A stretch of DNA of 53,143 nt from an uncultured Prevotella sp. (GTDB lineage: Bacteria; Bacteroidota; Bacteroidia; Bacteroidales; Bacteroidaceae). The DNA lies in assembly GCA_905236165.1 (NCBI GenBank), contig CAJOOC010000169.1, forward strand, positions 1 to 53,143, in the 5' to 3' direction. The position numbers and the translations under genes were made by a program. The notes beneath the pieces were generated by a model, which had not been told where the DNA came from, ran no database searches, and was given only the letters and a program-made list of their open reading frames with translations. Below, piece after piece: positions 3,757 through 4,472 of this stretch (the stretch's first letter is position 1; each line of letters begins with the position of its first letter).

Positions 3757-4023
3757 CAGCAGAATCTGCGCCACACTTTCAGTTAAGGAGTGTGAAAAGG
3801 AACAGTAAAAAGAGTGCCTCCATTGACAATAGTCAACAAAAGAGGCTTGTGTGCGCACACATTTAGCAAAATATTTGCAAGAACCACAGAATAGATGTAC
3901 TTTTGCATCAGAAATCAAGGAGATACTAAAGCGGGTTACTCCTGATGGAAACGGAACCAGCGATGGTTCCAAGTATTAACAAAATTGATTGAAAAGGATA
4001 AAGATTGTAAAGGAGATACAGTT

Positions 4024-4101
4024 ATGATCAAGAAAGTATTGGTTTGGATGGTCAACCATACCCCGGTAACAGAGCCATCCTACTATGCTGAGACACGCTG
4101 A
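4024..4101 (+). CDS. 25-aa micro-ORF MIKKVLVWMVNHTPVTEPSYYAETR
   Basis: ATG preceded by AAAGGAGATACAGTT (good Shine-Dalgarno spacing); lies inside the 3898-4313 unit. Confidence 0.35.
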   Translation: MIKKVLVWMVNHTPVTEPSYYAETR

Positions 4102-4262
4102 GAAGAGTGCCGAAGCATAGAATGAAAGGGAAAAAGGTTTTTTCAGGATTAGTAAAAGAATTGTTTAGGTTAGTTAGTTGAAGTTTTCGAAGGCCATTCG
4201 TGCGAAGTGAAGCAACTCTTCACTATCGCCCGGGCCGGAAAACAAAAGAGCCTCAGGCTCAG

Positions 4263-4313
4263 GTTCTGGATGCATTTTTATCCGTGAGGACGCATTCAGA
4301 GCCTTTTTTTATG
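4263..4313 (+). terminator. intrinsic terminator
   Basis: GGTTCTGGATGC ... GCATTCAGAGCC (12 bp incl. G-U) followed by TTTTTTT; preceded by GAGCC-TCA-GGCTC hairpin. Confidence 0.8.
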
Positions 4314-4472
4314 CCCGCAAGTCAGCATGGAAACAAAAAAACATACGGGAAAATGCGTCCGTATGCAAAAAAAGTAGTATCTTTGCAGACACAACAGCCG
4401 TGCAGAGCGGCTGTCAAGACAACAAACAATACAGAAACATGAGTGGGGATAACATAACCCACCTAAACGAAA

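Follow-up and report, generated by a model that had tools for sequence, protein, structure and literature searches.

A probable lineage-specific microprotein gene with constrained untranslated regions and a putative two-regulator promoter in a Bacteroidales genus

Small proteins of gut Bacteroidota with comparative backing are very few. The closest described candidates come from B. thetaiotaomicron, with 409 candidate small open reading frames (sORFs), seven of them with Ribo-seq support (PMC7366714). On the regulatory side, FNR-type proteins bind the consensus TTGATnnnnATCAA / TTGACnnnnGTCAA (PMC1274295), the CRP-like regulator BT4338/Cur of Bacteroides has the predicted motif wwwTATGTTnTAnAACATAwww (PMC3878776), and the SnoA RNA locus of B. 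thetaiotaomicron is a Bacteroidales small transcript in an FNR-family context (PMC13370916). Here we describe a locus that shares traits with each of these. It lies in the window, the 53,143-nucleotide stretch of DNA analysed, which is contig C169 of a 2.5-Mb draft genome from a large Bacteroidales genus. Seven genomes of the genus, the members, carry the locus; G228 and G418 are the two closest relatives of the window. Its features are as follows.

3777-3799, plus strand: conserved upstream block TTTCAGTTAAgGAGTGTGAAAAG (TTTCAGTTAAnGAGTGTGAAAA), a possible third regulator site, in the window, G228 and G418
3823-3836, no strand assigned: operator-like site 1, FNR-like palindrome TTGACAATAGTCAA, TTGA-N6-TCAA, with fixed spacing to site 2 in 7/7 members
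3848-3861, no strand assigned: operator-like site 2, perfect palindrome TGTGTGCGCACACA, TGTGT(G/A)CGCACACA in 7/7 members, 11 nt after site 1
3874-3905, plus strand: Bacteroidota-type promoter TTTG-N20-TACTTTTG, elements and spacing alike in 7/7 members
3906-3936, plus strand: conserved 5' UTR segment a, 29/31 identical to G228 and G418; transcript start approximate
3945-3992, plus strand: micro-ORF 1, METEPAMVPSINKID, not conserved and probably chance; the segment is 19/46 identical in the G228/G418 comparison
3983-4023, plus strand: conserved 5' UTR segment c, 38/41 identical to G228, with the Shine-Dalgarno sequence AAAGGAG (4009-4015)
4024-4101, plus strand: microprotein gene, 25 aa, MIKKVLVWMVNHTPVTEPSYYAETR, 11 copies in 7 genomes, pN/pS 0.22, stop codon variable
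4129-4181, plus strand: conserved 3' UTR segment, GGAAAAAGGTTTTTTCAGGATTAG...TTAGTTAGTTGA, 50/52 identical to G228 and G418, one indel
4183-4243, plus strand: irregular hairpin in a window-only insertion, not in G228/G418; single copy in its own genome
4262-4310, plus strand: rho-independent terminator, stem -20.6 kcal/mol with T7; relatives carry equivalents

The stretch 3874-4310 has the signals of a real, discrete and self-contained transcription unit. The original prediction had placed a promoter, a U-run terminator and a separate promoter for the next gene here, and all three were found. The promoter comprises TTTG (3874-3877), 20 nt and TACTTTTG (3898-3905), and the terminator a stem (4262-4273/4292-4303) followed by T7 (4304-4310). 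In the three-sequence comparison with G228 and G418 the stem is kept through compensatory pairs, and the terminators of G192 and G239 are visible in the locus alignment. A separate promoter serves the downstream Dabb gene (TATCTTTG, ~4378-4385). Directly 5' of that promoter we noticed an inverted repeat, CATACGG...CCGTATG (4344-4367), a possible operator. The predicted mRNA would be monocistronic, ~405 nt long and end at its own terminator. Searching the whole window against Rfam 15 at gathering score, a check that the original prediction had proposed, returned nothing except two tRNAs, and permissive E-values over the 3848-4313 region gave chance matches alone (best sub-threshold E ~1). The earlier view of a free-standing, undescribed transcript with a real micro-ORF is supported.

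A short ORF followed by a terminator resembles an attenuator, and a leader-peptide RNA for the downstream gene had been among the readings first offered. The arrangement of the loci contradicts it: all have a promoter and terminator of their own, the terminator is strong in the relatives, the Dabb gene has its own promoter, and the neighbouring gene varies between relatives or is convergent (spoU-type methyltransferase, trmA-like). The ORF contains no run of codons for a single amino acid and no alternative antiterminator was seen, so that we regard attenuation as very improbable.

Two possible micro-ORFs, each preceded by AAGGAGATAC, had been pointed out. The repeat is indeed present twice (3917-3926 and 4010-4019), as are both ORFs, but only the second is conserved. 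At the first AAGGAG position G228 and G418 carry AGAGAGATAC and they lack the ATG of micro-ORF 1, which probably arose by chance. When the DNA of the region was compared with 148 relatives, one genome matched, G008, and there the match covered only the stretch of the second ORF and the promoter region. Searching 399 genomes of the genus with a profile revealed 11 copies in seven genomes (E 1.6e-11 or better): one each in the window's genome, G228 and G418, and two each in G008, G192, G239 and G431, with tandem pairs on one transcript in four genomes (in G008, MIKNVLVWMVQHTPITEFYAEA and MIKKVLIWMVSHTPITEFYAEA). The next match, a peptide in G043 (E 0.002), is part of a longer ORF and was dismissed as chance.

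The synonymous-bias check suggested for the 25-aa ORF gave, over the first 17 codons of the 11 copies, a pooled pN/pS of 0.22 and 12/19 variable columns at the third codon position, statistics kept modest by a small family (7 genomes) and a short ORF, of which 17 codons were compared. Stop codons differ between copies (TGA, TAG and TAA), and AAAGG lies 5' of 11/11 ORFs. The comparison identifies 4024-4101 as a genuine gene under strong purifying selection at the protein level. Its strong Shine-Dalgarno sequence stands out in a phylum said to do without it, and translation would start from this sequence, at the second AAGGAG. The 22-25 aa products have a basic start, a short hydrophobic VLVWMV and then HTP[IV]xE...Y[AV]; the peptide falls short of the length of a classic membrane span. 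Searches of Pfam, NCBIfam and PADLOC gave no family matches, and one member had a chance-level match in PHROG.

The original prediction had noted abundant local pairing and had inferred, among other readings, a regulatory or dual-function RNA. Folding energy of the window indeed beats dinucleotide shuffles (z ~-4.8), as would be expected of a structured, non-coding regulatory RNA in which the ORF is fortuitous. With terminators removed, the window retained z -3.8, whereas for the six relatives the margin over shuffles was slight (z -1.1 to -2.5), which argues against a structured RNA body. The hairpins are present as placed, but the GGAACC/GGTTCC hairpin is not conserved in sequence (G228 and G418 have a GGGC/GCCC hairpin at the equivalent place), nor is the hairpin at 4183-4243, which lies in the window-only insertion and accompanies the window's larger folding excess. 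We also considered the latter as a genome repeat and rejected this on its single copy. Because micro-ORF 1, the GGAACC hairpin and 4183-4243 are unconserved, most of the excess folding of the window is no evidence for RNA function, and the case for a regulatory RNA by structure is weak; too much weight had been given to the structure of the transcript. Given in addition the pN/pS of the ORF and its third-position bias, a purely non-coding RNA can practically be discounted.

The non-coding parts beyond the ORF are conserved all the same. Identity between the window and G228 is 94% for 3906-3936, 93% for 3983-4023 and 96% for 4129-4181, whereas fourfold-degenerate sites reach only 45% in KsgA and 49% in PfkB; the UTRs are conserved beyond the obvious need of translation alone. 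The indel in the 3' block breaks any frame and rules out a second ORF in these 52 nt. RNAalifold pairs segment c with the end of the 3' block through 10 pairs (three sequences only). In the tandem-copy group, the spacer that separates the two ORFs carries a partly kept version of the GATTAGTTAGAAATT-like core of this block, an indication that the single-copy and tandem layouts share an origin.

The conserved blocks probably adjust translation or stability, possibly by 5'-3' pairing. Because they are more constrained than synonymous sites, the dual-function part of the earlier inference holds up better than its structural part: the transcript could encode the microprotein while its UTR blocks regulate as RNA, by base-pairing or by binding protein. 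The UTR identities, the 3' block without a second frame and the predicted pairing are all consistent with this. The tandem-copy group keeps just part of the spacer core, however, the relatives without their terminators fold little above shuffles and only three sequences bear on covariation; we therefore consider a dual function unlikely, while granting it a real chance. In such a scheme an FNR-type stress signal would yield the microprotein plus a conserved UTR-borne regulatory RNA, with 5'-3' pairing gating translation, as what this lineage draws from a regulon that controls envelope proteins elsewhere in the genus; we assign this scheme a similarly low probability.

The possible long-range pairing could also silence a full-length mRNA, as in hok- or aapA-like type I toxin-antitoxin pairs, and both the tandem pairs in four genomes and the short hydrophobic core of a product of 22-25 aa would suit a type I toxin. 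Yet the opposite strand has no -33/-7 promoter (TTG-N18-22-TAnnTTTG) in 7/7 loci, known type I toxins are far more hydrophobic than this peptide, the gene goes together with a regulated promoter module and PADLOC found no match. A toxin is accordingly quite improbable. A small-protein mRNA is, on these comparisons, the best-supported reading of the transcript, and the unit in the window is probably a stand-alone, lineage-specific microprotein gene with constrained UTRs and a two-regulator promoter.

The two palindromes between 3823 and 3861, overlooked in the original prediction, form a module with the same order in every member: TTGA-N6-TCAA, 11 nt, TGTGT(G/A)CGCACACA and the promoter. The block at 3777-3799 is kept although the upstream genes of the window, G228 and G418 differ. 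Site 1 matches the FNR-type consensus, and the FNR/CRP pattern TTGAYnnnnRTCAA lies 5' of the promoter in 7/7 members (with one mismatch in site 1 of G418) and at ~32 other loci, with the caution that FNR-like boxes are simple motifs. BT4338/Cur was rejected as the owner of either site, as its published motif differs from both. The shape of site 2, TGT...CG...ACA, is one that we take to be reminiscent of LacI-family operators. Matching the letters of the peptide and operators against the literature gave no match.

Allowing up to three mismatches, the paired pattern occurs ~80 times in 67/399 genomes, and the reversed pattern seven times. Of 34 further module sites read downstream, 32 have a promoter and a gene. 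Fourteen of these targets are SLT-like (borderline Pfam SLT match), 12 are small secreted proteins with a signal-peptide-like start (one tested, with no Pfam match) and six are outer-membrane beta-barrels (one tested, PF13505). Module sites include L128-L159 (for example L131, ~1062-1100, in the form TGTGTGCGCAmAmA). Six of the seven microprotein genomes also have an SLT-like gene with an FNR-like box and site 2 at a different spacing, where site 2 overlaps the -33 position. In G156 (L148) the module lies 5' of a beta-barrel gene whose homologue in G239 (L222), 76% identical, lacks it, an example of promoter rewiring. The module thus looks like an unreported regulon of the genus, with a target gene that changes from lineage to lineage. 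Separately, TGTKTnCGCAmACA sites occur as pairs with a distance of 66 bp, the second site of each preceded by an FNR-like box, in four genomes (L163:5690-5769, L164:1524-1603, L165:1306-1385 and, on the minus strand, L162:1723-1802); they are intergenic, 3' of an lptB-like ABC ATPase gene.

From the sequence, an FNR/CRP-family dimer would bind site 1 (~-80) beside a second dimeric regulator at site 2 (~-55), both 5' of the -33/-7 promoter and probably activating it. This activation is an inference on our part, as are the assignment of the two regulators, in vivo translation and what the peptide does. The likeliest action of the peptide, suggested tentatively, is that it binds a partner, either at the membrane surface or in the cytoplasm, when the FNR-type regulator senses its signal. 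The compared genomes directly show coding selection, conservation of promoter and operators, the terminator and lineage restriction.

Two more sets of 198 relatives gave no copy of the microprotein outside the known carriers, and neither 383 other genomes of the order (a set with 205 genera) nor phage and plasmid records yielded one. Among the sets searched it is confined to one lineage of the genus; further, more distant copies may exist. Five carriers had a KsgA sequence usable for a tree, and all of them fall in one clade of seven (support 100/100) together with G001 and G156, both without a detected copy. The tree does not separate one gain followed by losses from two gains. We further noticed a second KsgA in G000 (C22:5558-6337, L220), 73% identical, that groups elsewhere in the genus tree; contig C22 of this draft genome may therefore be contamination.

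The locus should be a good test case because it is cleanly delimited and has a regulated promoter, because sister species carry it in tandem duplicate and because its phylogenetic limits are clear. Since the module's target shifts between lineages, as for the beta-barrel gene of G156 and G239, regulatory rewiring is directly testable. Like the B. thetaiotaomicron sORFs, the unit appears to be a short, free-standing mRNA that has a promoter and a terminator to itself and a product of <50 aa; it differs in forming a lineage-specific sequence family with no family-library match, in its strong Shine-Dalgarno sequence and in its paired-operator promoter. As in FNR/HcpR-type regulons, site 1 fits TTGA(T/C)nnnn(A/G)TCAA, although the published Bacteroides HcpR2 motif, GTAACnnnnGTTAC, is unlike it (PMC1274295). 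The module departs from those regulons in its second palindrome at fixed spacing and in its targets, which are envelope or secreted proteins and the microprotein, not hcp. With the BT4338/Cur regulon it shares a palindromic CRP-family-type site 5' of a -7 promoter, while the predicted Cur motif fits neither site 1 nor site 2 (PMC3878776). Finally, SnoA is likewise a small Bacteroidales transcript in an FNR-family context, but it is antisense to the hcp promoter (PMC13370916), whereas the unit in the window would be a sense transcript that stands alone and carries a conserved ORF.
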